From assembly GCA_029204225.1 (NCBI GenBank), contig CM055113.1, positions 20,729,798-20,793,797 on the forward strand: DNA of 64,000 bases. The letters run 5' to 3'. The translations under genes were made by a program, and so were the position numbers. The notes below the pieces were generated by a model. That model did not search any database. It saw nothing but the letters and a program-made list of their open reading frames with translations, and had not been told where the DNA came from. This stretch comes from Diphasiastrum complanatum. Taxonomy: Eukaryota > Streptophyta > Lycopodiopsida > Lycopodiales > Lycopodiaceae. Shown here in pieces: positions 2,801 to 62,313 of this stretch (its first letter is position 1; each line of letters starts with the position of its first letter).

Positions 2801-2959
2801 AATTAGAGGACGAGGTGGAAGATTTGGCCGTGGAAGGTATCAATCGAGAGGAGGAAACTCAAGCCAAGGATCAATTTAACAATTTCATGAGCAAGTCAGT
2901 GATAGTCCGAATCGAAGCAATTGAAATCAAGGTCGAGGTCAAGGATGCGGCTATTCAAG

Positions 2960-4850
2960 ACAAAATAAACCTGGAAATTGTAGGTACTGCAACAAACCTG
3001 GCCACTGGGAGCGTGAATGCTTCAAGAAACAGAAGGAGATGGAACAAAGAAAAGACAAATGGCAAACATGAAATTATGTTGATCAACATCAACTTGATGA
3101 CTATTATTATGAAGACAATTATACTGATCAACATCAATACGATGATGATCAATATCAAGATGACACATGTTAGAGTTCAAAATTGTTCATTACAACATTA
3201 ATGACAAGTGATGAAGCCAAGGATACCTGGTACATTGATAGTGGTGCATCCAAGCACATGACTTCAAGGAAAGAGTGGTTTTTAGAACTCAAGGAAACTG
3301 ACAATGGTGATGAAGTTGGACAAGCTAATGGCAAATTGCTATCTGTTAAAGGAGTTGGAGTGGTACAAGTGAAGTTAGCCAGCGGAAAGATAAAGCGGAT
3401 AAGCAATGTGTAATGTGTACCTGGCTTAGCTAACAATCTATTTGTTGGGATGATGGCTGATCAACAGCTCAAGGTTGAGTTTGACAGTGACATATGTCTT
3501 GTCAAAGACATCAAGAATCACTGCAAAGTGATTGCTACAGTCGACTCTACAAATTGAATGCAAGATCTTTTACTCAAGCTATGGTAAGCATTGTTGATAG
3601 TCGAAGTGATCTTTGGCATCAAAGGTTTGGTCATATCAGTGCTCAAAGCTTGAAAATCCTTAAAAGAGGTAATCTAGTTGTTGGATTGCCTGATATCTCC
3701 ATGAGGGTTGCATTTTGGGAAAACAACATAGAGAGAGATTTCCCAAAGATGGAGCAAGAAGAGCCAATGGCATTCTTGATCTTGTTCATAGTGATCTGTG
3801 TGGACCAATACAAACTAGGTCCATTAGTAGTTGTTACTATTTCAGCACATTCATTGATGACTATAGTAGACATATCTGGATTTACTTCATAAGCAAGAAA
3901 TCTGATGCTTTTGCCAATTTTAAAGAGTTCAAGGCTCTAGTTGAAAAACAAACAGGTTGTTATATAAAGACCTTTAGATCAGATGGTGGCAGTGAGTATT
4001 TTTCAACAGAGTTTATAAAGTTTTGGAAGACAAAACACTACACCCTATTCACCACAACAGAACAGAGTTGCATAACGGAAAAATAGATCCATTGTGGAGA
4101 TGGCTAGGGCAATGCTTAAGAGCAAAGGTTTGACACATACTTTTTGGGTAGAAGTATGCAACACGGTTACTCATATCTTGAATCGGTGTCCTGCAAAGTC
4201 CGTGGAGGGTAAGACACCTTAGGAAGCTTTTACTGGAAAGAAATTTAATGTTTCTCATTTACGAGTATTTGGTTGTGATGCATACGCTCATGTACCTGAT
4301 GAAAAACGAAAGAAACTGGATGTAAAAGTTGTTGAGTGTATTTTCCTTGGATATGATGAAAGAGCCAAGGCATACAGGATGTATCACACAGACGCACAAA
4401 AGATCGTGATTTTCAAATATGCTACTTTTGATGAGATGGGTCAAAATGACCAAATAAAATTGACAATTGATCTCTTTGATGGCAAAGCTAAAGCGCAAGT
4501 GAAGGAAGAAGTTGGTGTCGATATGGAAGAGCCAATGGAAAAAGACAGGGTTAATAATGAGATTCCTAGGAGAGTGCCTAAGTGGTACTTGTCAGTAACA
4601 AGTGATGCTAATAAGGGGGAGATACTCCCGAATCAAGTGAGCAGGGAGAGCTTAGAAGATCAAGTAGAAATCGAAAACCTCCTGCAAGATTAGAGATGAA
4701 TCTAGCCCTAATGGAACCTGTGCTCAAGGCTCAAGAACCAAAAACTTTTGATGAAGCAAAGGAGCACAAGGAGTGGCGTGAAGCTATGGAAACAAAAATG
4801 GAAGCTATATCGAAAAAGAGGACATGGAGCTTGGTTGAGCTACCTTGTGG
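2960..4850 (+). pseudogene. Copia A copy 1 pol: zinc knuckle, protease, integrase, RT start
   Basis: In order: an intact CCHC knuckle (CRYCNKPGHWEREC, about 2,977-3,020); the aspartic protease motif YIDSGASKHMTS (about 3,230); the integrase zinc region LWHQRFGH (about 3,612); and the integrase core with HSDLCGP, FIDDYSRH and RSDGGSEY. The segment that should hold the third catalytic residue is scrambled at 4,030-4,085, then NRSIVEMARAMLK resumes. The integrase tail has HLRVFGCDAYAHVP and CIFLGYD. The RT N-terminus EWREAMETKMEAI ... WSLVELP is reached at about 4,840 and ends abruptly at the join with element B. Several stops and frameshifts make it dead. Confidence 0.85.
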
Positions 4851-5741
4851 GGACAATTCTGCTTCATGCACACTGTCCTTCCTAAGATTCTTTTCTTTGA
4901 AAGCCTTTGACTTAGGATTGTACCAACACTCACTTGCATAGTGTCCTGTCTTCTGACAGTGAAAGCTAGTAACATCCTTCTTGTCCCGATTCTTATAACC
5001 GCCTGCATTCTTTGCTTCTGGCTGGTTGTTGCTTCTGGAGAAATCTCCTCACTGAGCGTCCTTCCCTTTCGCTTTTACAAATAGGGCCTTCTCATCGTCC
5101 TCCTTTTGCTCAGCCTTCTGTCATATCAACTTTTCCTCTACGACAACCTTTGTTGCATCGTCAAAGGTATTATTAGGCGATCACATTAAGATTGTTCTTA
5201 ATGACTGGTAATCTTGTGGAAGTGATCTAATTAGAAACATAAACTGCTGTGCAGGTGGTATTCTGTCCTCCACTCCTGCTGCCTCTAGTTGTGCAAAGAT
5301 GGTTTCCATCTTGTTCCCATGAGAATCAAGATCAACACCATTCTAGTTTAAGCTGAACAGTTGATTTGTTAGATGCAAGACCTCTGTTTTGTCTTTACCT
5401 CATACTCATACTTTTCCTGCAAGCTCTGCCAGATCTGTTGACTGTGATCAAGATCGTCAACATTCATCAAGATTTATTCTGTGAATGATAGAGTGATAGG
5501 AGCAACAACTTTATCATCCTTCCTTCTCCATTCGTTAATTCTGACTTCATACTCTTCTGGCATTGCTTCAGTGCCATCCGCAACGACGCCCCATAAATTT
5601 TCTCCTTTTACGAGAATCATGGTTCTTCTTTTCCACTGACCGTAATTCGATTCATCAAGAATCACAATGGTTTTTGTGAAATGTTGGAAACCATTCTGGC
5701 TCGTCTTGGAGTTCCACTCCAAAAACCTGCTCTAATACCAC
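4849..5741 (-). pseudogene. Copia B gag fragment, antisense to copia A
   Basis: On the minus strand, 5,722-5,474 reads as a copia Gag N-terminus (ILDESNYGQWKRRTMILVK, then GENLWGVV). Further on there is a degenerate zinc knuckle, SFHCQKTGHYASEC (about 4,940-4,980), whose first cysteine has become serine. Stops and frame changes separate the pieces. The gag frame shows no ATG and starts about 5 bp past the primer site. The fragment replaces the rest of copia A's RT, so this is an insertion plus deletion, or a rearrangement. Confidence 0.75.
5726..5741 (-). other. Copia B primer-binding site
   Basis: The minus strand reads TGGTATTAGAGCAGG, one base off the initiator-Met tRNA complement TGGTATCAGAGC. 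It lies directly between gag B and TCTATCA, the likely LTR 3' end. Confidence 0.75.
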
Positions 5742-6230
5742 TGATAGAAAATGCGGAAGCTCAAATGTAGAAACAAGAATTATCTAGTTTCTACTATTGC
5801 AACATATGGCAGATAAAAATTACAGATTTACTACATGACAATGGAAATAATGGGCAAAAGAGAAAAATGAATCAATCAAACATAAAACAATTGTAGATAA
5901 CTACATCTAATGCACTCTTGCATTTATATCATCTGAATTACATATTTACAACAAAACTTGTGCGTTGTTTGCATCTCAAACAGCACGTCACCGCAAGAGA
6001 GCTACTCTCACTTACATCTGAATTACATATTTACAACAAAACTTGTGCGTTGTTTGCATCTCAAACAGCACGTCACCGCAAGAGAGCTACTCTCACTTAC
6101 GAACAACTAGTATCATGTACTAACGTGCTTTCTGTTTCGTTGATCATGTATATAGAGAATGGAGAGACAATTGATCAAATCTCTAGTGATTGAAAGAACA
6201 TCTTAACGCTAATTACTTCTACTTAGCTAT
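5742..6230 (-). mobile_element. Copia B 5' LTR, outer end uncertain
   Basis: The LTR should begin at 5,742 (TGATAGAAAATGCGG on the plus strand, i.e. an LTR ending ...CTATCA), immediately outside the primer site. No second copy is in the window, so the outer boundary is a guess. An 85-bp tandem duplication lies within it. The purine-rich tract at 6,285-6,425 may also belong to it. Confidence 0.45.
5930..6100. repeat. 85-bp perfect tandem duplication
   Basis: The unit starting CATCTGAATTACATATTT at 5,930 repeats at 6,015 and ends at 6,100 (TCTCACTTAC). The two copies look identical, which points to a recent duplication inside the putative LTR of copia B. Confidence 0.9.
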
Positions 6231-6284
6231 CCTTTTCCATTTTGCTTTCCTGCATCGTCTATTCACGCTCTTGTTCCGTTTTCG

Positions 6285-6425
6285 CAAAAATGCGAAAAAT
6301 GTGAAACATGTGAAAAGTGCGACATGAGCCCAAAAATGCCTATCTTGCAAAATTGGCTTTGCGAAAAATGCGAAGGCTGAAAAACCTGAAAATCCCGAAA
6401 AACCCGAAAATGCCGAAGGTTTCCA
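6285..6425. repeat. Degenerate GCGAAAAAT / CCCGAAAA short-period repeat
   Basis: About 140 bp is built from variants of GCGAAAAAT, GTGAAACAT and CCCGAAAAA. It gives spurious short frames (GFSGFSGFS on the minus strand). It resembles the GAAACGA-rich part of the copia D LTR in style but not in exact sequence. Confidence 0.6.
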
Positions 6426-6871
6426 AAGTTCACAGGTTTCCAACATGGAGTTATGCTCCACTAGAAGAACAATCACCTACATTATACATACAAGGAAAAC
6501 AAAACACAGATCCTCACTTACGTGCTATGCTTGAACACAAATTATCATCTAACTTAAAGCAATTTCATTAATGTATTAGTCCATCCTTCTCGATCATATT
6601 TGAAGCCAAAGTGAACTTGATCAGAACAAAGAAAAACAGACTTTCATTTAATTATTGTGTGAGGAAAAAGAATAACTGCATGATGGAGCTTATATACATG
6701 AACAGAACCACGATACAATTGTGAATGGAATCTAAAACTTCCTAGATGCTACTGTAGCTGATCATCAGGTGCAAAATCTTGCTGTGATACTTTAATAAAT
6801 GGATTTGATCGTAACTCTTGTATGTGTTGTTGATTCATGTGTTTCTCTTGATACATAGTGTCGAGAGCCAG
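6426..6871. other. Spacer and 3' flank of the DREB2-like gene
   Basis: There is no reading frame with recognisable similarity. The part next to 6,872 should hold the gene's 3' UTR, because transcription runs leftward. I see no clear poly(A) signal that I would commit to. Confidence 0.4.
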
Positions 6872-7705
6872 CTAGGGAGCTGGGTTATCGAGAGATGGAC
6901 CTGGTGGTTGATCGAAGGTCGACCATAGATCTATCGTCATATATTCTGAAAGTTCGTCACTTGGCAAATACCGGTCTTCATGCTCAGGCGACCACGTCAA
7001 CTCGAGGGCGGTAGTTGGTGAATCGGTCGGAAGCAATGCTTCACAAGCTTCCAATTCTAAATGAAGCGACGAGGATGGAGCTGTTGCCTGATCGGATATA
7101 TTCACACTCGCTGTTGCCTGATCGGATATATTCACACTCGCTGCTTCTGGCAGCAAGCTTTCGAGCTGCACCTTGCTGACACTGTAGACTGTTGAATCCG
7201 TGTCCGACTCTAATGAAACGACATCGCTACTCTGAGGGCAAATGAGGGCATGTGTAAAACAGCTATCGGAAGGCTTATTAATTTGATCTGAACTTGACTC
7301 ACCGGGGAAATTTAGCAGAGCGGAAGAACCGTATAGAACTTTTGCTGCTTCATCGTAAGCGCTGGCTGCCTCCTCAGCGGTGTCGTAGGTGCCAAGCCAG
7401 AGACGACAAGCTTTGCTGCCTAGATCATTTGGCACTCTGATCTCTGCCACCCATTTTCCCCACTTTCGTTGCCTCACTCCGCGATACCTGCACGTACCGG
7501 GGTCTGGCCCACCTTTCCCTTTCATGCAGCCCTTTTTGGGATCCCTTGGCAGGTCTCTTTCTTCTTGCTTTGCGGCCCGATCAGAGCTCCCCTGAATACT
7601 GTCTCGAGCTGCTGACCACCTCTCGTGATTCTCACTACTTAGAGTCTTCGATGTGCCAAAGGCGATCGCTCCGGATGCCGCATCGTAACTGATGAACGTC
7701 ATCAT
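6872..7705 (-). CDS. DREB2-like AP2/ERF transcription factor
   Basis: 277 aa, single exon. Family knowledge: DREB2 proteins bind DRE/CRT promoter elements in the nucleus and activate drought, heat and salt responses. Seen: a basic [11 protein letters not shown] motif (58-67), typical of DREB2 and likely part of the nuclear localisation signal; one AP2 domain at 73-134 ([17 protein letters not shown] ... [21 protein letters not shown]); and an acidic, Ser/Pro-rich C-terminal half suited to activation. V14, a DREB hallmark, is present; position 19 is V instead of the usual E. Between PN and LWLG there are eight residues (DLGSKACR) where A-2 DREBs usually have four. [10 protein letters not shown] occurs twice in tandem (189-208). 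The start is ATGATG with an in-frame TGA 15 bp upstream. No disruption is seen, so it is probably functional. Confidence 0.92.
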
Positions 7706-7826
7706 GAGCCATGCAAATCAAATTAGGATGATCCATCTCTATGGCCGATTCAGCCGCTACGTAGACTTTCTGCTTTTCCGGCGGATTAAGGCCACACGGA
7801 ATCAACCACGCGAATAATTCGTCCAT
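7635..7826 (-). other. Upstream ORF overlapping the DREB2-like start
   Basis: A 63-codon frame begins with an ATG 121 bp upstream of the DREB2-like ATG, in a different frame, and ends 70 bp inside the coding region. If present in the 5' UTR it would reduce initiation at the main start, as overlapping uORFs do elsewhere. It could also be a chance frame. The peptide (MDELFAWLIPCGLNPP...) matches nothing I recognise. Confidence 0.35.
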
Positions 7827-8207
7827 ACCTTTGCTCTGATGCAGCAGCTCAAAGCTAAATTACCGACTCTCACCTCCCTTAGTTGTTCAGTTGGCGTCAG
7901 CACATTTCTGACGAGTAGATGGGTATGCCAGCATGATACCCAATTCCAGACGCACATCATCGAGGCTGACGTCCAGTTTGCGACGATGTGTGAGCTCATG
8001 ATTCACGAGGAGAGGCAAGGCCGAAATGAGGAGGAAAGAGGCAGAAGCAGGCAAGAAGGCAAGTAAGTGCTGCTGGCTTTTTCTTGCTGCGAAGGGCCAG
8101 GCTCAAAAGGTTTTGCCACGTAATGTTTTTGTTAAATTTTCAAGAGGTCGACTAGTGGGACTTTTGAAGGTTTCAAACTTCAAAGGACTTAGTCCATGAG
8201 CCTAGAG

Positions 8208-8242
8208 TGTACCCTCTATATATGTCACCTCTATATATGTTA
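8208..8242 (-). promoter_or_regulatory. Candidate TATA region for the DREB2-like gene
   Basis: CCTCTATATATGT occurs twice within 30 bp; read on the minus strand this gives ATATATAGAGG twice. It lies about 510-530 bp upstream of the ATG, so it implies a long 5' UTR that would include the uORF. This rests on sequence pattern only. Confidence 0.3.
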
Positions 8243-8743
8243 ATCTTAGATATTGGTTAATTTTTGGCTGCTCCCAAAGATTTTACGAGTAAAAATGTTT
8301 AACTGTTACGAGAATTTATTCTCGTGCTTCAAGAAATTGACCTGGTTAAATGTTATTTTAAAGATAGGGGAGGGTTATGTCCAACAATTTGGGTTTTTAG
8401 GGCACATTTTTTTAAAGCGTTTTGCTCGTGCATAATGACATCTATCACTACTTTTGAAATGCCCACGAACATGAGAACCAATTAACTAGAGTACCATTAA
8501 ACAGGAGGGACATTGTTGTAAACCAATTCTTCCCAACCAAACCCCTAGCCCCCGAACAACGGGGAGAAAGGCAAAATTGATCAATAGATGTGCTTTCCAA
8601 ATCCAATAGATCGAGGTTGAAATCCCTACATAAACATAAACAGACTATAACCAATAGCCGAATGCTCACCACTACTTTAGACAAACTTTATCAAGGATAA
8701 ATACTTCTCTCAATGAGATTGTCATCAAGAGACATATGCCCAT
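8243..8743. other. Spacer, no gene recognised
   Basis: Short frames on both strands (for example 8,448-8,684 minus) show no family similarity. Nothing else stands out before the G LTR begins at 8,744. Confidence 0.4.
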
Positions 8744-14492: not shown

Positions 14493-16394
14493 TCGTTTGT
14501 CTCTTGATCCCCTGATCCTTGCAGAAATTTATAAACTCTGTTGAAAAATACTCATCGCCACCATCTGATCTGAGGGTCTTAATATAATAATCTGTTTGTT
14601 TTTCAACTAGAGCCTTGAACTCTCTAAACTTGGCAAATATTTCTTGCTTATGAAATAAATCCAGATATGTCTACTGTAGTCATCAATAAATGTGATGAAA
14701 TAGTAACAACCACTAATGGACCTAGTTTGTATTGGTCCACACAGATCACTATGAACGATCAAGAATGCCATTGGCTCTTCTTGCTCCATCTTTGGAAAAT
14801 CTCTCTCTATGTTGTTTTCCCAAAATGCAACCCTCACAAATTTTTCCTTCAAAAGAGATATCAAGAAATCCAACAACTAAATTACCTCTTGAAGTATTTG
14901 CAAGCTTTGGGCACTGATATGACCAAACCTTTGATGCCAAAGATCACTTTGACTATCAACAGTGCTTACCATAGCTTGAGTAAAAGATCTCGCATTCAAT
15001 TTGTAGAGTCAATTCCCGTTGACTGTAGCTCCTGTAGCAATCACTTTGTAGTGATTCTTGATGTCTTTGACAAGACATTTGTCACTGTCAAACTCAACCT
15101 TGAGTTGTTGATCAGCCATCGTCCCAACAGATAGTAGATTGTTAGCTAAGCCAGGTACATATTGCACATTGCTTATATGCTTTATCTTTCCGTTGGCTAA
15201 CGTCACTGGTACCACTCCAACTCCTTTAACAGATAGCAATTTGCCATCAGCTTGTCCAACTTCATCACCATTGTCAGTATTCTGGAGTTCTGAAAACTAC
15301 TCTTTCCTTGAAGTCATGTGTTTGGATGCACCACTATCAATGTACCAGGTATCCTTGGCTTCATGACTTGTCATTAATGTTGTAATGAACAATTTTGAAC
15401 TCTCACCTGTATCATCTTCATATTGATCATCATCGTATTGATGTTGATCAGTATAATTGTCTTCATAATAATAGTCATCAAATTGATGTTGATCAGCATA
15501 ATTTCTCGCTTGCCATTTGTCTTTTCTTTGTTCCATCTCCTTCTGTTTCTTGAAACATTCACACTCCCACTGACCAGGTTTGTTGCAGTACCTACAATTT
15601 CAAGGTTTATTTTGTCTTGAATAGCCGCGTCCTTGACTTTGGTCTTGATTCCAATTATCTCGATTCAGAGTATCATTGACTTGCTCATGAAATTGTTGAA
15701 ATGATCCTCGGCTCGAGTTTCCTCCTCTCGATTGATACTTTCCATGGCCAAATCTTCCACCTCATCCTCTAACTGCAAGAGCTTGATCATAGCTCCTGTT
15801 ACGATGATTCAGGTTCTCTTGATGTTGCTCTTCTTGCAAAAGCAATCCACCTAGTTCTTCATAGGTTGGAAGATTTTCTCTTGTGGCTATACTCATCACA
15901 AACATCTGATGTGACTCACTCAGACTATTCAATGTCTATTGCACGATCTCACGATCTTGTACTCGCTCTCCAACTGCTGCTAATTGATCACGGATCTCTT
16001 TGATCTTCAGTATGTGATCAACAATAGTTGCACCATCATCCATCCACAATGTATGCAACTTTGTCTTTAGAAATAGTATTTGAGATGTATTTGTCATTTC
16101 AAAAAATGCCTTCAATGTATCCCACGCTTCTTTTGGTCCTTCTGAATCTGAAACTTATAGAATAAATGCATCTCTAACTGATAAGTTGATGACATTTTGG
16201 GCTTTCTGTCTTCTCCTATCAAATGCCCGCTGATATTCTTCAATCACTGCCCTTGTCTCTTCACCTGTTACGATCTCTCATAGCTCCTTTTTCATCAAAA
16301 TTTTTTAGTTTGAATTTCCAAACTGCATAGTTGTTGGCACCTTCCAATTTGCTTGACTCATTAAGGACACCCTCACTTAGAGTTGCCATTATTG
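14493..16394 (-). pseudogene. Copia A copy 2 gag-protease-integrase, 3' truncated
   Basis: It reads from the gag ATG at about 16,390 (MATLSEGVLNESSKLEG) leftward. Gag is riddled with frameshifts but keeps the segment that copy 1 lost. The knuckle-protease part follows (DTWYIDSGASKHMTS at about 15,330; MLSVKGVGVVPVTLANGKI). Then come the integrase pre-core (GCILGKQHRERFSKDG at about 14,810), core motifs VHSDLCGP, FIDDYSRH and RSDGGDEY, and EFINFCKDQGIKRQTT, which copy 1 lacks. It ends there at about 14,492, so the third catalytic residue, RT and RNase H are missing. Identity to copy 1 is high. Confidence 0.82.
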
Positions 16395-16439
16395 GATAGA
16401 TGAGTCTGGATCACAAAATTTATTCACAACACAGAACTG

Positions 16440-16700
16440 TAAATTTTTTGGTTGTACACCGGATATCAGTATGACGCGCAGGTGCACGACTGCTCGAGAT
16501 TCTCTTTACCTCTAGCGCGTCGCTCTGATATTGGTACTGATATGTGATATCGGTATGACGCGCGAATGTACGACTGCTCTTGGTTTTCTTTACCTCTGGC
16601 GCCTCGATCCGATATTGGTATGGATATGCTATATCTGTATGACGCGCGGATGTACAACTGCTCAAGATGTTTCCGACCTCTGACACATCGATCCAATATT
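16440..16700 (-). repeat. 84-bp tandem repeats, copia A copy 2
   Basis: Three units as in copy 1 (TACCAATAT ... AGGTAAAGAAA ... GCGCGTCATAC ... GATAT), again just upstream of gag. The repeat frame again encodes Y-Q-Y, E-V-K-K/R and A-R-H-T-D-I blocks, but here a stop ends it before gag. Retention of three in-phase units in both copies shows the array is part of the element. Confidence 0.85.
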
Positions 16701-16990
16701 GGTACGAAAAAGATTAAAAATAGAGAGAATATAAGAACTTTCAGAGGGAATATTCTAGATTCCCCACTTCGGCGCGGTAGCTACGCCGTCTCCTCTTTGT
16801 AGAGATTTCAAAATGTGTGATCGTTCAAAAGACAGAGATCAATAATGTGAAAAGTATGAAGCCTCCTAACTCTGAATGGCAGTACTAGACACTGTCTAGT
16901 GTAATTTGTGTTACTCCAAACAAACAAATGAGAGATTTCTTCGCAAACCTCTCACACAAATAGCACTTTCCACAACAACTAGGAAGTATG
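16701..16990 (-). mobile_element. Copia A copy 2 leader/LTR part
   Basis: This is the reverse complement of 1,605-1,889 with few differences (includes ACACTAGACAGTGTCTAGT, itself a palindrome, CACTAGACAGTGTCTAGTA). It is cut at 16,990 where F LTR sequence begins. Confidence 0.8.
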
Positions 16991-17351
16991 CTTCAATGTT
17001 AATAAAAAGTGGCCAGTAAACTAAGTATTGTGCCAAGTAGATCAAATGTATATTTAATTTTAATTGGGAGACACCTTTACTTTAATTTGACATCTGATGA
17101 GGACATCAGATTTTATAAAGGTGGGGTGGATGTTGTAAAGTTACCTTTACAAGCTTTACTTTCGGCGCCAGCATTGTTCCTGGCGCCCGCAGCACCCCTG
17201 CTACTCCTGGCACCGCTCCCGGTGCCGCTCCCGGCGCCACTGTAATCAGGCGATGCCAAGTTCCTATGGCTGAAAATCTTTGATCGGTTCTAGCGAAGTC
17301 CAAAGAGCTCAGATCGAAGTGCAATCACCTCACACGATCTAGGCATGATTA
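16991..17351 (+). mobile_element. F-family LTR, 5' portion
   Basis: GCTTCAATGTTAATAAAAAG at about 16,986 and the following 345 bp match the first part of the LTRs at 47,431 and 61,023 (CATCAGATTTTATAAAGG, ATGGCTGAAAATCTTTGATC). A GGCGCC-rich block lies at 17,164-17,240. Similarity ends at GATTAAAG (17,351). The element interior is absent. Confidence 0.85.
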
Positions 17352-17475
17352 AAGCACCACCTCCACATCCACATCCACCTCCACCTCCACCTCCATCTCC
17401 ACCTCCACCTCCACCACCTCCTCCTCCACCACCACCACCACCACCACCTCCACCACCTCCACCACCACCACCTCC
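17352..17475. repeat. CCACCT/CCACCA microsatellite
   Basis: About 120 bp of CCACCT, CCACAT and CCACCA units. It yields poly-proline on the plus strand and poly-glycine or poly-tryptophan frames on the minus strand; none of these is a gene. Confidence 0.95.
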
Positions 17476-17632
17476 AAGTTCTGCCGTAGCTGGCCCAAGT
17501 AGGACCGTAGAGCGTGGCAAGGGTAGGCCGGCCCCTCGTGCAGCACCATGGGCTGGAAAGGAGCTCCATAGGATGCAGCCACCACCTCCTTGACCGTGCA
17601 GGAAGCACAGGATAGCTAAGCAATTAGCTCGA

Positions 17633-17977
17633 ATGTTGATCATCCTCATGCACCAAACTAACTTTAAAAAAACCAATGCACAAAGGCATACAAAAAAACT
17701 TACAAAGTGGCTCCAAGATATAAGGAGGTATCAGAAGTCTGTAAAATTTCTAATACCTAGGGCCCCATTTGTGAGACTTGCTAAAGAAATAATCGATGAA
17801 TTTTTCTTGGGGAACAAAGTTATGGCAGATGTTGTGTCCGTGATACCAGAGTTTGCGAAAATGTACCTAATGCAGCTTTTCGAGGACTCATTTTTGTGTG
17901 CAGTACACGGGAAGAGAGTCACAATACTCCAGAAGGATCTCCACCTAGCTAGAAGGCTAAGGAGAGAGCGCAATTAA
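17633..17977 (+). CDS. Divergent histone H3-fold protein (CENH3-like features)
   Basis: 114 aa, intronless. Family knowledge: H3 pairs with H4 in nucleosomes; the CENH3 variant marks centromeres. Seen: basic tail (11-26), alphaN IRRYQKS (30-36), [14 protein letters not shown] (40-53), alpha2 with [20 protein letters not shown] (78-97), and alpha3 [13 protein letters not shown] (101-113). LIP, EDS and LARRL match CENH3s; canonical H3 has LIR, EDT and LARRI. Loop 1 has H3 length, the CENH3 loop tryptophan is absent, and the end RRERN is H3-like. VIPEF (70-74) puts a proline where ALQEA should be in alpha2. The start ATG is the first after an in-frame stop at 17,591; the usual A-R-T-K tail is not recognisable, although CRKHRIAK just upstream in the same frame hints at one. 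It could be a retrocopy, a decayed H3 or a real variant. Confidence 0.7.
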
Positions 17978-18221
17978 AAATATCATGTACATGATTTTAT
18001 TTATAATATACTGAAGATTTGGTGTTAAATATATTGAAGAATTTCAGGTTATATGAATGCATATTGTTGTGATTGAGTTTAATATCTAATTTCAGTACTA
18101 TTTATATGAATGCAGTGATTTGAAAATTTTAGTACCATCTATGTGAATGCAATGATTTAAAATTTTTAGTACTATGGGAATGGTGGTTTCTTGTAGCATG
18201 TTGTGGCTAAGATAGGTTTCC
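17978..18221. other. 3' flank of the H3-like ORF with 37-bp repeats
   Basis: At 18,093-18,172 a unit beginning AGTACTATTTATATGAATGC repeats as AGTACCATCTATGTGAATGC, each followed by ATTTRAAAATTTT; a partial third unit follows. I see no downstream gene. Confidence 0.6.
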
Positions 18222-18321
18222 TTGCCTTGCGTGAAAATCATGCCCAGGTGCGACCAGGGGCTGTTTGACCAGGTCAAACGGCCCCTGGTCGCGGCTTGGC
18301 ATGATTTTCATGCCAGGGCAA
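18222..18321. repeat. 100-bp near-perfect palindrome
   Basis: The arms run from TTGCCTTGCGTGAAAATCAT inward to GTTTGACC (18,270) and from GGTCAAAC (18,272) out to ATGATTTTCATGCCAGGGCA. The axis is at 18,271 with a single-base spacer. The inner 40 bp pair almost fully (GCGACCAGGGGC with GCCCCTGGTCGC). The GC-rich core contrasts with the AT-rich flanks. Confidence 0.9.
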
Positions 18322-18440
18322 AGACCCAAGAAATTTTTATCAGAGAAAAAAAAATTAAATTCTAAATTCAAAGAATAAGCACATCATATAATTACAACAG
18401 ATAATTAGGAGAGTCCACAAGAAAAAAACGACAAAATCTT
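18322..18440. other. Short AT-rich spacer
   Basis: No features seen. Confidence 0.3.
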
Positions 18441-19856
18441 TATTCACGTTCAGTCCATTTCCTTCAGAGAGGACTTCAGCTTCTTTGATCGATTTTCTGA
18501 TGACATTATTGGTTTTAACATTTCTAATGCTAATTTAGGAGCATCACTCTCATTCTCATAAGGTTAAACTCGAGAGAATGAGCCGGGTCTCGAATCAAGG
18601 ACAGAAATCATCCAAAATGGCTTTTCAGAGGACAAAGTAAGTCTTTGGAATTGACGATGACAACTCCACCTCACCAATGTGCTTGGAGAGCGCTTTGCAT
18701 TTAAGAAGCTCCATTGGTCCATTTGGACTGTACTTGTTGCTGAAGTAGAAAATAAAGTTGTTGGGCAAGTTCCCAATGTAGTGGGCCATAGACCTGTCCA
18801 GAGTTCCTGCTTCAACTTTCTCTCGAACGCCACCCCTTCGCATAGCAAATGCATCAAGCTCCACTGCATCCTGCATTTGGTTCACATTATTGCAAAATGA
18901 GTATAATGAAGACAAAGAAATATAACAAAAATACACAAGTGGAAGCTGAATTCCTTTGCCTTTGTACTTCACGTCAGCAGTTTTCCCTTCGAGTACTTTG
19001 AATGGCCTCATTTGAACTGGTGGTGGTTGAAGCGTTTTCAATTGGCAAAGCACTCTTTCCAGTGCTTGCTCGATGCTGTCCATGTCATGGCCGATCAACT
19101 TCTCATATGTGTCGTCGGGCTAGGTGTGGTCGAAAGTGGAACTGCCATTCTGCAAATTTACCAATGCCGCCAACATCTTATCTTCTCGCAAGTCAAAAAT
19201 ATGTTGCAAGTCATGCATGAACACATACTCTTGCCCATCAATGATGATTGGAGCAAGGCCATGGATTCGAAGCACGACATCATCGACTCATCTATATCGT
19301 CTGACTCCGTTGATGTGGATGCACCTGTTGTCTCTTGCGCAGCCAAGATTGTTTCGTGCTCCGCGGATAAATCTTACTCTTCTTTAGAGTCGTCCATCTC
19401 ATTCACCTGCTCACTAGGATTGTGTTTGTTGCGGGCCACAGTCGTTGGAAACTCATTAAGCAAAAAAATAACAGTAATCTCATTGGATAGAAACTTCCTT
19501 CCTACACTTTCAAAATCAAAAGTTTTCAGTTGATCCTTGGTCAGCTCCAAGTAATGATCGTTACCCAAGTGACTAATAAATCCGTTGAGACAAGCGATAA
19601 ATGGTCTATCTCCTTTCCATATATAACTAAGCAATTTATATAGAATCCACATGATAGTTGAGCCAGAAATTTGTATGGCATAAGGCTTCAAAGTCTCATC
19701 TATATACTCACTCACATACGTGAATGCATCCGTATTAGCCCATAGAGTGGCAAGCGTGTCTATTCTACCGGTGAACATACAATAAATATGACCTAATTGA
19801 TCTAAAACCTATGTGGGGGCTAGCAGATTGGCCAACTCTATTTTAGAGTATGACAT
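18441..19856 (-). pseudogene. H1 transposon second ORF, unknown protein
   Basis: From an ATG at 19,856 it reads MSYSKIELANLLAPT, a stop, then VLDQLGHIYCMFTGRIDTLATLWANTD and on to 19,374, ending in the acidic VNEMDDSKEE. A Ser-rich stretch (TGASTSTESDDIDESMM) and AMRRGGVREKVEAGTLDRSMAHYIGN (about 18,840-18,760) follow in other frames. It lies directly downstream of the H1 transposase-like ORF on the same strand, so it may be a second element gene or the decayed C-terminal end. I do not recognise a family. Interruptions: one early stop and at least two frame changes or introns. Confidence 0.4.
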
Positions 19857-20219
19857 TGTGATGCAACAGAACATTAATTTACCAGCAAACTAGTAGTCTA
19901 ATTAAACAAGACAAACTAAATTACGAGGACAGAAATTTCAACAAAGCAAGAAGTGACAACAAAATGAAAACCCACACTCTTATATAGAGAGATGTGTTTC
20001 CAAAAATAGATATTATTATAAAACAAAATAAAACAATTTCTATTTATAACAACAATCCAATTCGTCAGTACTATTTATCACAAAGGAATATTCGAATTAC
20101 AATCCAACATAAATTGCTTTTATTCCATCTCATATGTTCCATAGCTTCTCTAGCGTTGTTTTTCAAAACATTGGATGTTGGTGTCCTCGGCATCCATCTC
20201 TTTCCAACTCGGACTCTAG
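19857..20219. other. Spacer inside H1
   Basis: AT-rich; no coding similarity between the two H1 reading regions. Confidence 0.3.
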
Positions 20220-22725
20220 ACATCCTCCATTCTTGATGCCTTGGAGATTATTGAACTCAACTCTTCAGTTCTTGTGTTTTGAAAGTGTCCTCGGCCCAAA
20301 ACTCCTCTGTAAAATCATTGGAATATCTCAACCAATGCATTACTAAGACCCTTTCCGCCGCCATTTTGAAATATGCAGCCTTTGCCTTGTAATGACTCTT
20401 TTCCATGCCTTGCGTATTCCAGATGGCTAATGATCCATAGGTTTTCATAAACCAAGGTCCATGAGCCTAAGATGTGTTGTTCATAAAAAAATTTGTATTA
20501 GTTTAAATCTTTATAAATACATAAATACGAAAGTAAAAAATATGAGACACACATACCATATAGTGAGTTATGTGTGTTTCTCCCCATGCATCGATCATCG
20601 ATTCAATAAATGTTTTGACTTCTCTTGCGTATCTATCCAAATATTCATCTCTCACAATCTTTTTGTTGATAGTTTGTGACAAGGCATCAAATGCTTGCCA
20701 AACCTTAGCACGTGTACTTTCCATGCGAGGACCTGAGCCAATATTTGTTGTGCATTGACATATTTTTTTCTAGTACTCCCATTCAACACTGCTTTCACGT
20801 GCAGTATGATTTGACAATAAGTGTCTTGCTTTCGCACCACCCATTGAAACTTTTGTTGGAACATCTTGCATTTTTCCACTCATCTCAACGTCTTTGGTAA
20901 GACTCACATGGCCCCCATGCAATCCCATATCAGATAAAATTTATCTCTAGATTTTTAATGCTAACATCTGCTCTTGATTTGGGCCACATTTTCCATGCGT
21001 AACAACAATGCAAAAATAATAATTTGTCCAGTATTCGTAATTCACCATGCATTGTGCAAAAATGAACTCTTTCGAGAGGAATGTTCAACACAGGACTCCA
21101 AGCTTTGTCAAGATTGTGCCTATTTGGTGCAAGACGTTGGTTGCAATTCGAAATACTTTTGTTCCGCCCAGATTCAAACATACAATATATACAAAAATTC
21201 TTTGCATTTGCACCCAAACCACAACCGTACATGCATTCCAAGGTCTTCAAATCAGCAGCTAGGTGCCATTCTACAGCAAAGCTTTCTCCTTCAACATTGA
21301 GCTTTTTGCCTTTATTTTGTGCATGTATTATCTTAGATATACTACATTTTTCAAATAGCCACTCTAGTATGTCATGAGACTCCTTAGAAACTTCAAATGC
21401 AGCTATCCACCATATGTGATTTTTGGATTGCACGCTAAATTCTTTACAATAATTTTCGCCAAACTGTTGCAATTCACGATTCATCAAGGTGATTGTGACA
21501 CATTCAAGTTTACGCCCTTTTATGATTTCTGTTTCGTCCAACTTAATAACAAATATAACTTTACCTTCAAAATCTGTAAAACAAAAAATTCATTACGAAA
21601 ACATATTGGTTGAAGAAAAGCATACAATTGAATACTGAAATTCACAATAAATGTTCTCACCATTTGTTTCAACTTTGTAATGTCGAATCATCATCGCTTG
21701 GACCTTTTCCAGACCTAAGAATATATTGTTGCCTTGACGATAATAAAAACATGTCGAAGGTCCTTTCTTCTTATTGGTTACTGCAAAAGAATCCTCAATA
21801 TGCTGAAACTCTCCTAATTCAGAGAGCAAAATCGAATTGCATTCTCGTTTGGTAGATTCAACAAGTTTATAAGTAGGTATTATTTGATGGCGTTTTAACC
21901 CATTTTTGTCAGAGCGTTTCATATACTTCTTCAAAGATCTATACCCCTTGCGAGTCACACCTCCTTGGTCACATGCATACACCATCTCTTTAACATTTGG
22001 ATTTGGCTTGAACTTGTCGACTAGTTTTTTTGCAATTCTCAAGCGAATTGAATCATTTGTTTCATCTTCCACAATCTTAATCAAATCTTTACCCTTCAAA
22101 AAATGTTTCATATATTTTTCGGCAATAAAATCTTTTCCATCCATCTTTTGCAAGAACTCTTTTGTGTCCCTCATACATCTTTTATTGGCACCACCACCTG
22201 GTGCCAAAGCTTCTAGTTTGTGTCTCTTAGTATTTTCATTTTTTGCTTGCTGATCCATCGAGACTCTACGCTTTCGTTGTAAGCCATATATTGTCCTCTG
22301 AAATATACTGATTGAAGATTGCAATTCTTCAATTTTTGCAACAGAACTGGCAAGCTCTATTTTCAAACCGTTTATCTCCTGTTCCAATTTCATATTTATT
22401 CCATGCAATGACTTTAAATTGTCATTCATACTCAAGATATGAATGTTTGCCGTATTTGCCAATGTCTCAGCTTGGATTCTTCGAGAATCCATTGCTTGAC
22501 AATAGCCAAGCAGATTATTTCAACCATCCCCAATGAACGTTAACAAACTATGTACATCAAAAAATTTAGGAGGAGCATTTACCAGTGGATTATGAGGGTA
22601 TAAATCATCTCTTACCCATAGGTCAATATGTTTTTTGCCTTCTAATCTCCAACAATGCATCTCATACGAATTTAAGTTAACACCCCATGCAGCTTTGGTG
22701 GTTGCATAATCCTTCTCTATCTAGC
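20220..22725 (-). pseudogene. H1: unassigned multi-exon transposase-like protein
   Basis: It parallels H2 block by block. N-terminus at 22,720-22,510: KHIDLWVRDDLYPHNP ... FIGDG, a stop, NNLLGYC. Coiled coil at 22,450-22,260, and a basic region KRHKLEALAPGG. An intron follows at about 21,650-21,570 (donor GTGAGA, acceptor TTGTTTTACAG). Then KLDETEIIKGRKLE, SKNHIWWIAAFE, EWHLAADLKTLECMYG, FCIYC, VHFCTMHGELRILDKL, SMGGAKARHLLSNH and GETHITHYM with a splice donor GTATGT. The next exon at 20,460-20,257 has WNTQGMEKSHYKAKAAYFK. Conserved D (KLDE), D (DLK) and E (HxExR) with C-x2-C and H-x4-H between them suggest a DDE/RNase H-like transposase. That is inference; I cannot name the superfamily. Several stops and frameshifts. 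Confidence 0.6.
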
Positions 22726-24280: not shown

Positions 24281-26864
24281 ATTGTGTGGACTTTGTTATA
24301 TGTCGAATCTGAACTCTACGGTAGAACCACTAAAACAATTGACAAATGTAGTTTCGTTTTTCAATGGTTCCTCCATGTTGTGTGAAATGCTGCTTGTGCT
24401 TGCTAGTGTGACTTCTCCATCCCTTGCGATGACCATACACTCAAGCTTCCATATGTATTTGCAAAAAATGTTGTATGATCTCTTAGTATGTGCTGCATTT
24501 GTCAAAATCATAATGTTAGTCTTATGTTTAGATCTAAATATATATGAAAATTTGAAAGCATTTTGAAAATTTTATATTGACCATGTAATGAGTGATGTGA
24601 TTTTCTCCCCATGCTTTTGATATTGCATTAACAAACTCGACACAAGTCCTTTGGACAGCTTTCTTATCAATATCTAAGTATTTTTCTTTTCTTAAAATAG
24701 CAATCATACTATCAAGTTTTTTCCATACATCAACTTTTAGTACTTTGGTTTTGCCGTCTTTCTCGAAGTCTTGAGTGGCAGCAATAATATATGTCCAGAC
24801 TGAGTGTTGAATATTAGAAGCCTTACCAATATGATTTGATAGAAAACGACGTGCTTTTGCTCCTCCTATGCTTGGCTTAGTTGGCATGTTCCCATTCTTT
24901 CTTGAAAGCTTTTCATCTTTTTGAATTTTGACATGTCCTTTATGGAGTCCTGCTTTTGATAAAACATCTTCTAATCGAGAGATAGCTTCCTTTGCTAATG
25001 ATGCTGGCTTAGTATTCCAAGCAGAAACTATATGAAGATAAATGATCTTTTCTATTAATCTAACTTCTGCATGAAGAGTGCAAACATGCACATTTTTTAA
25101 GGGGATAGGCAGCACATGCTTCCAGTTTGGATCTGCATATTCTCTAGTAATTCTTGTACTCCTAGTTACATCTTTTGCCATTTTCATGCAATACAAACAA
25201 GGGTGTTTTGATGTAGCACTGTGAGAGACATTATACATACATTTCAATGTTTTCAAATCACCTACTAAGTGCCATTCAACATTGAAGTCTCCAACTCTTG
25301 GAACATTGAGAAATCCTCCATCCATATGGTCCTTGATGATCCTAGGATAAGATATCCTTGAGAATATCCATTAATATATCATGATCCTCTTTCAGCACCT
25401 GTCCAAAGAATTAATCATACTTAGTTTACAATGTATTAATACTATTCAATGAATGTAATGTAATAATGAGGCTAGTTACCTGAAACGCTGCCAACCACCA
25501 TATATCATTTTCTGACTGGACACTGAATTTAAAATCTTCTTGATTCTCTATGTGGGATAGAGCACCATTCATGAAAGTTATACTAACCCTTTCCATCTTC
25601 TACCCTTTCACAATTTCTGACTCATCTAACTTAAGTACTATGATTATTTTGCCATTCACCTTTTCATAGGTTATATCATAGAATGTGACGATGTATTTCA
25701 GCAAGTAATTTAGATCAACAAATAAATTGTTTGATGAATTATAGGATATCGATCTTCCATCAGTTTCATACACCTCCTCAATATGAAATGGAGTTTCAGT
25801 GATCTTACGCATACCTATGTTTAATGTATCTCTCTCTTTCTTCAAGTGGTATGTCTTAGGGATTGGGACTTTTCTAATTTGAACTTGCTTAAAAGCTTCT
25901 CTAATTAGTTTAAATATTGTTGCATATGCTTCCCTACTAATACCTGCAAAATCACAAGCACCCTGAACTATAGTCTTATCTAAAATATTTTGAATGTCCA
26001 CCATCAAAGACTCTGTTATTTTACACTTTATATTTGAAATCCTATTGTTCATCATGATATGCTTAGTGGATTTGCAAGTCAATATTGTGCCCAATGACAT
26101 TCCTAGTGAAGCACTGTCTTTAATATTTCGAGGAACTACTAATGCAGATCTGCAAAAAAAACAGATAGTTAACAGAATATCACCATAGCTGAAATTAAAT
26201 TCAAATGTCATTGAAAAACTTACAAAATTTAGAATATGCTTACTTGAATGCACGGATCCTTCTATTTCGATAACCTCCTTTTGAAAGCGTTTGAATATCC
26301 TTGCAACTTTGTCGCTTTCGCTTCTTACTTTCAGCCTTCTTCTTTACCAAATCCACATCCTTCAGTAATTGTAAGTTTTCAATACAAATAGACTGTAAGA
26401 CTGAATGCATCTACTCTAGTTTTGATTTGATATTAATTGCTATCTTCTGTAATGATTCGTTATTTTTTTTAAGTTGTTCATTTTCTTCTAACGTCTTTTG
26501 GAGATGACAATCTCTATTATGACAATAAGAGGATATCCAAATTAACTCACCTTCTAAAAAGTGAATTTTATTTATATAAAGATGTTTTCCATGGTTCAAT
26601 CTTTCACAATATCCTAGTAATCCACTATGCCCATTGCATATCCATGTAACTAAATGAGTTATTGAAGAGAATGTGGGATGTGTCAAAGTGCTTGGATCTT
26701 GTGGATATAATGTTCCATCTGTCCACAAATCCACGTTTTTTTTTTCCTTCTGCCTTGTAACGAGAACAATCTTTAGCAGATATTTGAACTCCTTTGCCTC
26801 CTCTTCTCTGCAAAGGTGCCAAATCAACAGGGATATCCACATGTAGATGATATAATGTCATCAT
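24281..26864 (-). pseudogene. H2: second copy of the unassigned transposase-like protein
   Basis: Order on the minus strand: KNVDLWTDGTLYPQDP ... GLLGYCERL (26,740-26,590), coiled coil (about 26,480-26,400), a basic KKKAESKKRKRQ region, then 26,160-25,600 ending GKIIIVLKLDESEIVKG and a stop, SENDIWWLAAFQ with an intron near 25,480. The long frame 25,325-24,534 follows: EWHLVGDLKTLKCMY, PCLYC, VHVCTLHAEVRLIEKI, SIGGAKARRFLSNHIGKAS, AWGENHITHYM with a GT at the same splice point as H1. Degraded similarity to the H1 EKSHYKAKAAYFK exon is at about 24,440-24,390. It is less decayed than H1 in the 24.5-25.3 kb exon (263 codons open). Function is inferred only. Confidence 0.6.
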
Positions 26865-58270: not shown

Positions 58271-58599
58271 CGTGACGAAGCTTTCAGTTGGTTAAGTTTG
58301 ATGTAAGTCAGACCGCTTGCTTGGACTGGATGTTACTCGTTTGTAACGAAGCTTCGAGTTGGTCAAGTTTGATGTATGTCGGGCGGCTTGCTTGGAGGAA
58401 AGTCACCCACATTGGGACCCCCGATCTGGCATGGCGCCAGGTTGGATCTCAATGTTGGTTTTCGGAACTTCGAGTTGGTTAAGTCTGATCGTTGTTGGCG
58501 AGTTGGCTGCTTGTATGTCAAGTGGGTTTGGATGGCAAGAGTTGAAGGCTGGGAAGCTAAGTCGTGGTTCCTGGCTCCCTTTGGGATGCCTGCGCTACA
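58271..58599 (+). mobile_element. F copy 2 5' LTR, 3' portion only
   Basis: It matches the last 329 bp of the F LTR (CGTGACGAAGCTTTCAG to GATGCCTGCGCTACA). The first ~940 bp are missing, together with the end of the G LTR in which F sits. Confidence 0.85.
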
Positions 58600-61022
58600 T
58601 GTGGTATCAGAGCCGACTGGCCAGTCAACTATGTGGATCTCACAGAAATGGCCACGGTTTGGGGTTCATCAAGACAACTGTTGTGCAAGATGCTGCCCAC
58701 AGTGTAAGCATGGGTGCGTCCACGGTCGGGGTGGTCGGCAGAACAGGGGACTTGATGAGTCAAAGTGCTGCCCTTGAGGTGTAAGCACAGTCAGTTCTCG
58801 CGGTTCGGGCCTGGCGTTGTCTGCACGTAGGACAGATGAGACAGTGTGCTGCCATTAGGTTGGTGTAAGCACGGTCTGTGCCTTGTGGGGTGCGGGGCGA
58901 CATATTCGAACTGTACGGGTTAACCATTGATACAGAGATGTTGCTCGAATTCGGGTGTAAAGCACGGGTGGTTAGGTGCCGGTGCGGGATAGCTGCCGAA
59001 AGTTTAGCTATAAGGGCTATCGGCCAAAAAGTGGTGGGGCGTGACTGAGGCAATGTGGTGCTCAATGGTGAAAGCACGGATAGTTGGAGGGGTGTCCTAT
59101 GTGGGATGATTCCGTAATCGATTTGTATGGGCGCGGCCGTTGGCAGGACCATCTCAAACCTTGTCTTTGTTACTTGTTAGTAAACATGCCCGAGTGTCTT
59201 ACTTGTATGTATTTGTGGTGAGTCTTAGTAGTCGTGCTTTGCCTGGTTTGCATGATTGCTTGTGATACAAGGAGTTGATGGCTCGAGAAGAAACCTTTTC
59301 TTTTGAAGGCTGATACCATCAAACAAAGAGGGCTACAGAATCTGTGGGGCGGATTTGCAGTTCAAGTACTCGCACGTGAACGGCAACGAAACGACTCAAT
59401 GTTTGCAAAGGATGGATGGCTAGCCTGTTTCTTGGGTTAGTTTCATTTGCGACAACGCCCACCAAACGCAAGCAGGAAGTCAAAAGTTGGAAAGGGCAAT
59501 TTCAGGGGAGATCTTCTATGGAGCAGTTGGTCTTCATTTTGGGACGGCCACCTTCGGAACTGAAACTCACTGAGCATGGGTGATATCCAGAATCTGTGGG
59601 GCGGATTTGCAGTTCAAGTACTCACACGTGAACGACAACGAAACGACTCAATGTTTGCAAAGGATGGATGGCTAGCCTATTTCTTGGGTTAGTTTCATTT
59701 GCGACAACGCCCACTAGACGCAAGCAGGAAGTCAAAAGTTGGAAAGGGCAATTTCAGGGGAGATCTTCTATGGAGCAGTTGGTCTTCATTTTGGGACGGC
59801 CACCTTCGGAACTGAAACTCACTGAGCATGGGTGATATCCAGTATCAGTTGGGTTTTTCCTCAAAGGGGAAAAGACTAGGATCCTCTTCAGAGATTGGCA
59901 ACAAGTTGGATCGAGCCATAATCCTAGCAGATAGGAAGCAAAGTGTTGGAAAGGCTTTTTGTCCGAAGAACTCTACTCTAAAGTCCGATCAGCTGATTTA
60001 TTAAGTGGAGGGGAACTATCACACACACCTCTCTCTTGGGGCAAATTTTGAATTAAAGTTGATCAAAATGGGGGCAAATTCAAGGTGACCTAGCCATACT
60101 CACACGAGGAGACTGGCGAACTTTGGACCTAATAAGTTGACAAGTTTTTGTTGGGAAAGGAAAGCTTGTTATAGGCTTTCTCTGCACCAGCAATGATGAG
60201 GAAACATATGAGTACGCTGGCTTGTGTTACGTGTAAGGCAGCTGATCAATGAAGGAACTGAGAAAGTTGAGTCTTGCATGAGAGACTTGGTATTTCGAAC
60301 GGACGCTAAGGGACAGTTCGCGTTGAGATCGGACTAGTGCAAACTCTGGGTGCATGTGTCTGATTCAAAGAGAGCTACTTGAAGCCAAGCTCGATGTACA
60401 CTTCTTGTTTTGACTGTGAGGCAACTGACCAGTGATGGAATTGTGAAAGTCAAGTTTTGCGCGACGGACATGGTGCTTCAAACAAACGCGAAGAGATAGT
60501 TCGGATGCGGATCAAACTGGTGCGACCCTTTGGATTTCCACGAGGTCAATGATTACATTTGGGATGATTCAAAGAGCTACTTCAAGCTAAGTGAGAGGTG
60601 CATTGCGGAGTACTCAATCTTTGCCTACCTTAAAGAGCCAAGATGGAAAAGGATCAAGATCAGGCTGGGACAAGGAGAGAAATCAAGGTGCAGAAGCAAC
60701 AAGGCACAAAGTGGACCATAAAGTGGGCAATCAAACGATAAATCCCTACCTGTGCGGAACTGAACAAATCTGGAGCTCAGGGAGCTCAACACAAAAGGCA
60801 TCAAGGACAAATCAGGAGCTCAAAGGAGTTCCAAAGTCGAATGTCAAAAGCGACAGGGGCGAACATTTCAAAGAAAGACCTCTGCCACCAGTTAATAAGG
60901 TTCTCGGGTTTTACGAAAGCGATATCAAATCTACGCTTTTCCCAGACAAAGATATATTTCCAAGTTATGTAATTTTTCAGTACAAAGAGCTGAGCCTCCG
61001 ACTTGTGGTGTGCCAGCTTCAA
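58600..61022 (+). mobile_element. F copy 2 PBS and non-coding interior
   Basis: A perfect PBS, TGGTATCAGAGC, is at 58,602-58,613, so the family uses the initiator-Met tRNA and is a true LTR element. The 2.4-kb interior has no gag or pol similarity. It shares the copy 1 interior and ends GTGCCAGCTTCAA. It has one hairpin repeat unit (58,988-59,090) and a 252-bp duplication (59,337-59,840). Confidence 0.87.
59337..59840. repeat. 252-bp tandem duplication in F copy 2
   Basis: AGAATCTGTGGGGCGGATTT at 59,337 recurs at 59,589; both units run to GGGTGATATCCAG and differ at only a few bases. F copy 1 has a single unit (about 45,978-46,231). Confidence 0.92.
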
Positions 61023-62313
61023 TGTTAATAAAAAGTAGCCAGTAAATTGAGTACTGTGCCTAGTAGCTTAAATGTATAGTCATTTTAATTGGGAGACACC
61101 TTTACTTTAATCTGACATCTGATGAGGACATCAGATTTTATAAAGGTGGGGTGGATGTTGTAAAGCTACCTTTACAAGCTTTACTTGCGGCGCCATCGGC
61201 GCCAGCTATGTCCCCGGCGCCAGCTTGGGTAGAGTGCTTGGTATGAGGGGGGGTGCCGAATCACACCAATACTATAGGGGAGTGCGGGTTGCGACTCAGG
61301 GCGAGCTCCAACCAAGTCTCAGCCTCCCTTGCTGGAATGTTGTCATGGCTCTCGTCTTGGCATGCTAGCGCCCCGGAGACTAGGGTCGGTCACACACTTG
61401 AAATGTAACCTTCTCAGATTTATCAATAAAGTGGGATTTTCCTCAAACTGACTCTGATTACCTTCTGGGTTTCAGTGTTCGGTAAAAGCGCCAGTTGTAA
61501 GGCCGCTTTCAAAATTTTTAACTTGGCACATAGCTGAGGGTCGTATCCCGGGACGCCAGCGGTATGCCGTCGGGACCATTCGGTCCGTGGCACCAGCGGT
61601 ATGCTGTCGGGACCATTTGGTCCAAGAACTGGTTGTTTCCATATCTGTCGCGGCTTGTGGTTCTGAGTGTTCCTTGCATGAACGTGAATAGGTTAAGCTC
61701 TTGGGGAACGGGCTCTAACCTGTCGGCTGAGTTGGATGGCGGCATGGCGCCAGGTTGGATCTCAATGTTGGTTTTCGGAACTTCAAGTTGGTTAAGTCTG
61801 ATCGTTGTTGGCGAGTTGGCTGCTTGTATGTCAAGTGGGTTTGGATGGCAAGAGTTGAAGGCTGGGAAGCTAAGTCGTGGTTCCCGGCTCCCTTTGGGAT
61901 GCCTGCGCTACAGCTTGCTTGGGTGGATGTTACCTGTTTATGGCTGTCCAGTCTGGCGTGGCGCCAGGTTGGCTTCCAGCACTCGTGACGAAGCTTTCAG
62001 TTGGTTAAGTCTGATGTAAGTCAGACCGCTTGCTTGGAATGGATGTTACTCGTTTGTAACGAAGCTTCGAGTTGGTTAAGTTTGATGTATGTCGGGCGGC
62101 TTGCTTGGAGGGAAGTCACCCACGTCGGGACCCCCGATCTGGCATGGCGCCAGGTTGGATCTCAATGTTGGTTTTTCGGAACTTCAAGTTGGTTAAGTCT
62201 GATCGTTGTTGGCGAGTTGGCTGCTTGTATGTCAAGTGGGTTTGGATGGCAAGAGTTGAAGGCTGGGAAGCTAAGTCGTGGTTCCCGGCTCCCTTTGGAA
62301 TGCCTGCGCTACA
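61023..62313 (+). mobile_element. F copy 2 3' LTR, rearranged
   Basis: It starts TGTTAATAAAAAG and ends GCGCTACA. Relative to the copy 1 LTR it lacks a ~200-bp block after the GGCGCC cluster (at about 61,226). It carries an extra 172-bp copy of the LTR's own 3' end at 61,741-61,912, inserted at a GGC/GC microhomology. Confidence 0.85.

Follow-up and report, generated by a model that had tools for sequence, protein, structure and literature searches.

An H3-type histone frame in Diphasiastrum complanatum, almost certainly a dead copy of a gene belonging to a multi-gene DNA transposon

Introduction

Histone H3 genes carried by DNA transposons are already known from fungal hAT elements. In Pyrenophora tritici-repentis, an H3-like gene with reported ESTs, H3L, sits in a hAT element of ~5.6 kb whose copies are young and nearly identical (PMC3538342). 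In Pseudocercospora and its relatives, hAT elements of ~9.5 kb have captured H3, are flanked by 8-bp target site duplications and are reported to have had all their copies inactivated by RIP (PMC6710886). A related precedent is given by the TET/JBP dioxygenase genes of fungal transposons, which that study presents as thought to counter silencing (PMC12730594). With regard to plants, the literature on transposon histones and CENH3, covered as titles and abstract beginnings and including few subscription papers, yielded no case of a transposon-carried H3, and "histone" does not occur, by term search, in a 2026 review on how plant genes are captured (PMC13317346).

The sequence discussed here comes from Diphasiastrum complanatum (contig CM055113.1), and the whole stretch analysed, of 64,000 nucleotides, is referred to as the window. 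A preliminary description had drawn attention to a short, intronless frame at 17633–17977 with a mixture of H3 and CENH3 features. What is this frame, and what surrounds it? The reading developed below is that it is almost certainly a histone gene copy, now dead, of a multi-gene DNA transposon.

The histone frame and the broken gene around it

The frame at 17633–17977 is open over 114 codons, as had been described. Pfam matches it to Histone with 82.4 bits (E = 4e-23, residues 12–110), and its residues 24–113 align without gaps with H3 chains of the PDB in the five alignments displayed; the frame contains an H3-type histone fold by both measures, and the same scores rule out a chance ORF. The motif letters reported for it (31 protein letters, not shown) are present, and loop 1 has the H3 length. 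The fold proper occupies 17708–17974; the first 25 residues are not histone, since they are encoded by an 87-bp in-frame insertion (17621–17707) that is absent from all three aligned sister copies. Position 17620 marks the end of homology to most sister copies. Upstream, the frame continues as 17345–17593, the poly-proline and linker part of the same histone gene, which is closed by an in-frame TGA at 17591–17593. Given this TGA and the insertion, the ORF is best seen as the last portion of a gene that was once longer and is now broken (Table 1). A proline in the segment VIPEF is also found in L009/L010 and L054, and is absent from the other aligned rows of the same histone family (family A, described below).

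Table 1. Transposon-related features of the window
Feature	Coordinates	Strand	Evidence
Upstream stretch of the broken histone gene (linker, poly-proline), in-frame TGA at its end	17345..17593	+	Sequence comparison
87-bp in-frame insertion; source of the previously described ATG and first 25 residues	17621..17707	+	
H3-type histone fold and stop codon	17708..17977	+	Pfam, PDB, alignment
Family A transposon remnant, both ends gone, insertion 17621–17707 inside	17355..22722	.	Matches el015 2850–8348, sister copies
T1, second element protein, broken	18885..19838	-	67–89% to el015 T1
Transposase-like gene, exon-sized pieces T2–T5, broken	20137..22720	-	47–92% to el015 pieces
Family C transposase-like gene pieces, second transposon remnant	24385..26842	-	Comparison with family C

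No transposon terminus was found in the window at up to three mismatches. As judged from its matches to sister copies, what the window contains is a dead fragment; the DNA transposon that it derives from has inverted ends. No histone was found alongside the second remnant, that of family C.

It had also been proposed that an LTR ending about 280 bp upstream may supply a promoter. A dispersed repeat (16990–17354) does end 279 bp before the ATG; it is different from the retrotransposon-like fragment at 14518–16989 (88.6% to 4029–1605), which stops 644 bp short of the ATG and may, by reading, be copia-like. Nothing shows either of them driving the frame, and the promoter becomes beside the point because the window copy is a dead fragment; a remnant that is broken and has lost both ends rules out an LTR-driven gene.

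Elsewhere in the window, an open frame on the minus strand (6872–7705) has an AP2 domain (E = 1.9e-16) and is likely a host transcription factor gene. Related open frames (SGMAPGWISMLVFGTSSWLSL...) at 58359–58784, 61564–62338 and 62863–63442 look like a dispersed repeat, and a 252-bp tandem pair occupies 59336–59853.

Copy number and ends of the transposon

A protein search of the plant's own genome (1.745 Gb), in which the best 150 of 5553 candidates were scored, the query itself among them, located the histone at no fewer than 149 further places besides the window copy. Among the matches listed, identity to the window protein is 67–84% (query excepted), 110 of the 150 are free of stops over the part that matches, and the longest open frame has 440 aa. 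Twenty matching places were taken with 10 kb each for comparison. The sequence to the left and to the right of the histone proved common to the window and the retrieved copies; ten copies share a sharp left boundary at or beside CATTAGGGCCC, and inverted CATTAGGGCCC closes the opposite end in L020, L022 and L015+L029, the last of these being a copy read end to end, with a length of 8,778 bp. When one mismatch is allowed, the 30-bp terminus occurs at 662 + 637 = 1,299 places in the genome, and the control at 0. Matching inverted ends and many copies are what characterizes a DNA transposon. No target site duplication is evident in the three copies for which both flanks were compared; some DNA transposon families produce none. 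On C1, termini spread over 8.4–98.5 Mb of 101.6 Mb with no single obvious cluster among the 100 matches listed. One pair of copies, L009 (C20) and L010 (C21), is 99% identical over ~10 kb, which points to a recent duplication or to an assembly matter.

These data bear on the two origins that had been suggested for the frame, a retrocopy of host CENH3 or a new variant. The former falls, given a sequence present at a minimum of 150 places in the genome and lying, beside transposase-like genes, in a transposon with inverted ends; a processed retrocopy, that is, a free-standing copy of a host mRNA, is ruled out by membership of a transposon family. The suspicion of a new variant proves well founded; the frame is a real, divergent H3-fold sequence.

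Gene content and families

With the histone gene taken as forward, the element begins with a two-piece protein (A0/A1), followed by the histone on the same strand; T1 and the transposase-like gene, which is in several pieces, come next on the other strand. The name transposase is given solely because the gene lies in an element that is repeated and has inverted ends: no scanned transposase-like or other non-histone piece of the element has a Pfam match above the cut-off, profile searches of a transposase piece and of A1 against the PDB gave no useful relative, and AlphaFold models, made for A1 and for one piece of the transposase, are too poor to use (mean pLDDT 42.9 for both). A BAH-like look of the A0/A1 protein was a reading impression that gained no support.

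The histones form at least four diverged families, namely A, which includes the window copy, B, C and D, to which the single sequences E (L063) and G (L084) are added. Among families A, B and C the histones are 42–50% identical, and the gene order transposase-like gene, histone, A1/A0 is common to A, B (L041) and C (L040), with the histone on the strand of the transposase in B and C and on that of A1/A0 in A. The longest transposase-like piece is 39.0% identical to that of family A in L040 and 38.0% in L041 (short pieces up to 68%), and A1 of L040/L041 is about 31% identical to A1 of family A, so that histone, transposase-like gene and A1/A0 diverge together across the three families. The frames between transposase and histone match mutually in B and C (E = 9e-19 and 7e-17); T1 of family A matches those at the same place weakly, with E = 0.004 at best. 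The H3-type gene emerges as a standing member of the gene set of these transposons.

The histone genes also differ in what surrounds the fold. In family A, for example in L021 and L022, the H3 tail is separated from the fold by a long N-terminal extension made up of an RS-rich part, poly-Q, an acidic-hydrophobic segment and poly-P. Long repeats carried by this family disrupt the reading frame of many copies. The impression that the acidic segment resembles an activation domain is unsupported, also by the contrast of variants described in the next section. In B and C the histone frames do not stop at the fold and add a long C-terminal extension, alike by eye (L041:4829–5836; L040 reverse complement 4662–5702). 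At L034 (C7:53542900–53544600), a family C transposase-like piece and the histone fold share one open frame, a fusion that could be the result of a deletion; by coordinates, similar transposase-histone frames occur at C7:53718919 and C7:54518893, and the frames span 412–416 aa.

Constraint on the histone sequence

Has the histone been of use to the transposon? Over the fold, comparisons between families A–D give pN of 0.18–0.43 and pS of 0.72–0.91, with saturation in five of the six comparisons. Low pN with saturated pS means that amino-acid change was held back over a long divergence, and the comparison between families thereby establishes constraint on the amino acids of the transposon histone.

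Within families, variants seen once, which mostly represent decay after insertion, were contrasted with variants present in two or more copies. In family C (12 copies) the once-seen variants are N37:S19 and the shared ones N15:S37 (p = 1e-4). The corresponding figures are N35:S23 and N9:S9 in family B (12 copies; p = 0.59) and N63:S39 and N36:S36 in family A (40 copies; p = 0.16), neither of them significant. Pooled over A, B and C the contrast reaches p = 2e-4, a value to be read with the copies having been picked by protein score, which lowers N and biases toward conservation, and with cells that are not independent. Duplicates (L010, L040, L041), two host H3 rows and, from B, the D and E rows were left out of these counts. 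When the element of family A is taken part by part in up to 20 copies, p is 0.35 for the histone fold, 0.11 for the N-tail, 0.61 for the acidic segment, 0.74 for T3, 0.004 for A1 and 0.02 for T1. The contrast within families supports constraint without measuring it.

An N-terminal tail with K4 and without K9

Host H3 begins with ARTKQTARK. The lysine matching K4 is present in 31 of the 31 readable tails of families A (15), B (12), D (3) and E (1), and K9 in none of them; L010 and L041, as duplicates, were left out. The K9 position is D in 14/15 tails of family A and G in the remaining one, L in 11/12 of family B and P in the other, L or F in family D, and P in E. The exact motif ARTKQTAR is found in 8/15 tails of A, 6/12 of B and 0/3 of D (one partial), and E has it in partial form only; the start of family C is unlike H3. 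ARKS, the context of K27, is absent from 21 family A frames and from the family B frame L041. The transposon histones with readable tails thus have no canonical H3 tail with K4, K9 and K27, and the window copy has no tail. Plant CENH3 likewise has no K9, so that the absence of K9 in the transposon histones did not necessarily evolve to counter silencing.

Relationship to host H3 and CENH3

The mixture of H3 and CENH3 features that had been reported holds for a divergent H3-fold frame with LIP, LARRL and a loop 1 of H3 length. In the phylogeny that had been called for, the 21 transposon rows of a 28-row tree form one clade and the host H3 and CENH3 rows lie on the opposite side; the window histone groups with the transposon histones, at a support (89/90) that is not decisive, and the CENH3 rows do not form one clade. 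A tryptophan in loop 1 is a feature of CENH3, also seen in the CENH3 rows of the tree; among the transposon histones it is present in B, D and E and absent in A and C. Of the longer, tryptophan-containing loop 1 of CENH3, family B has both traits and family A neither, its loop being of H3 length. Searches of the PDB with the folds of families B and D brought up H3 and CENH3-type chains side by side, not separated. CENH3 ancestry of the transposon histones is, on these comparisons, neither shown nor excluded.

The own genome was also searched with an Arabidopsis CENH3 query. Thirteen H3-like genes ranked first, two of which were read (L030 and L031; 98.5 and 97.8% identical to plant H3), and most of the other matches were further histone-like frames. 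The first candidate for a host CENH3, L082 (C11:15454600–15456600), was rejected as it reads as an H3 pseudogene; this stretch also holds telomere-like CCCTAAA repeats. At L085 (C3:74790400–74792100, minus strand), one intron-split exon encodes part of a divergent H3 variant whose linker is unlike H3, and GTAAGT comes directly after it. It is a candidate exon of the host CENH3; no further exon was found in the next 2 kb.

Proposed explanation and alternatives

Why would a transposon carry a histone? The mechanism put forward here, tentatively and as the likeliest of several, is that of a transposon-made H3, resistant to silencing, that serves the chromatin of the transposon itself. Intact copies would make an H3-type protein, which would pair with host H4 and enter nucleosomes, above all over transposon DNA. 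These nucleosomes would offer a K4 tail typical of active chromatin and no K9 for methylation, and K4 without K9 would keep the chromatin of the transposon open, allowing it to stay transcribed and mobile. Taken jointly, the identity as a transposon histone gene and the anti-silencing mechanism are given a little better than an even chance. Extended to the group, the proposal is more doubtful: a long-lived set of plant DNA transposons may encode its own H3 variant, with the H3K4 peptide kept and the positions of silencing marks lost, and lay it on its copies against heterochromatin.

Captured gene fragments are often copied along without use, and the histone might be such a passenger, an H3 or CENH3 coding sequence taken once from the host. 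The once-seen and shared variants do not differ significantly within A or B, and captured H3 in fungal hAT elements is reported to be dead, at times, in every copy (PMC6710886). Such a passenger is unlikely: amino acids remained constrained while synonymous sites saturated between families, family C gives a contrast of p = 1e-4, K4 was retained in every readable tail, and the histone persists in three families whose other genes also diverged.

Somewhat less probable again is a histone that steers integration or segregation, for instance by labelling chromatin, at centromeres or elsewhere, for insertion. The LIP motif, the loop-1 tryptophan of B, D and E, and a study cited elsewhere on integration through CENH3 chromatin in Arabidopsis would fit, but the loop 1 of family A has the H3 length and the termini on C1 extend from 8.4 to 98.5 Mb with no one obvious cluster among the 100 matches listed, in a comparison by chromosome coordinate.

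It is highly improbable that the histone coats transposition intermediates, or that an element of viral origin condenses DNA with it. That a mobile element with several genes encodes an H3 fold, and joins to it long segments that host H3 does not have, may suggest packaging, yet Pfam finds no known capsid-type gene among the scanned pieces, and packaging does not require a kept K4 tail. Viral origin was rejected, as two viral-contig scans (transposase alignment A1, P0001) and PHROGs (three proteins) gave no relative. Finally, an intronless host CENH3 retrocopy, perhaps driven by a nearby LTR, can scarcely be entertained, for an intronless fold with LIP and LARRL is all that favors it against the transposon context, the copy number, the broken histone gene and the place of the window histone in the tree.

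The anti-silencing H3, if intact copies make the protein, would be a case of a mobile element that edits the chromatin of its host by supplying a nucleosome subunit. Silencing would then be countered by the histone itself, not by an enzyme, and natural H3 variants with K4 kept and K9 gone would be at hand. There is also a practical side for centromere studies that set out to find CENH3: in genomes like this one, a gene model that looks like CENH3 or a divergent H3 may belong to a transposon.

Comparison with known systems

The transposon histones resemble plant CENH3 in the LIP motif, in a tail without K9 and in the loop-1 tryptophan of B, D and E. They are unlike it in being carried by a transposon, in many copies, and in the H3-length loop 1 of family A; CENH3 is usually a split host gene.

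Like H3L of Pyrenophora, the gene described here is H3-like, lies between inverted ends in many copies and adjoins a transposase and a further ORF (PMC3538342), but here there is no Pfam hAT match, the families are several, old and diverged, and the host is of plant type. The Pseudocercospora elements are likewise DNA transposons with an H3-like gene, present there in hundreds of copies (PMC6710886), whereas here no duplication is evident in three copies and many frames are open. With neither a hAT match in the scanned pieces nor a duplication in those three copies, the present element does not have the marks of a hAT with H3L. The TET/JBP transposons share the principle of a chromatin-related gene carried by a transposon and thought to act against silencing (PMC12730594); theirs is an enzyme acting on DNA methylation, and here it is a histone. 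Against this background, the present case is set apart by its host, which is of plant type, by a different transposase, by the number and age of its families, and by a histone tail that keeps K4 and has lost K9.
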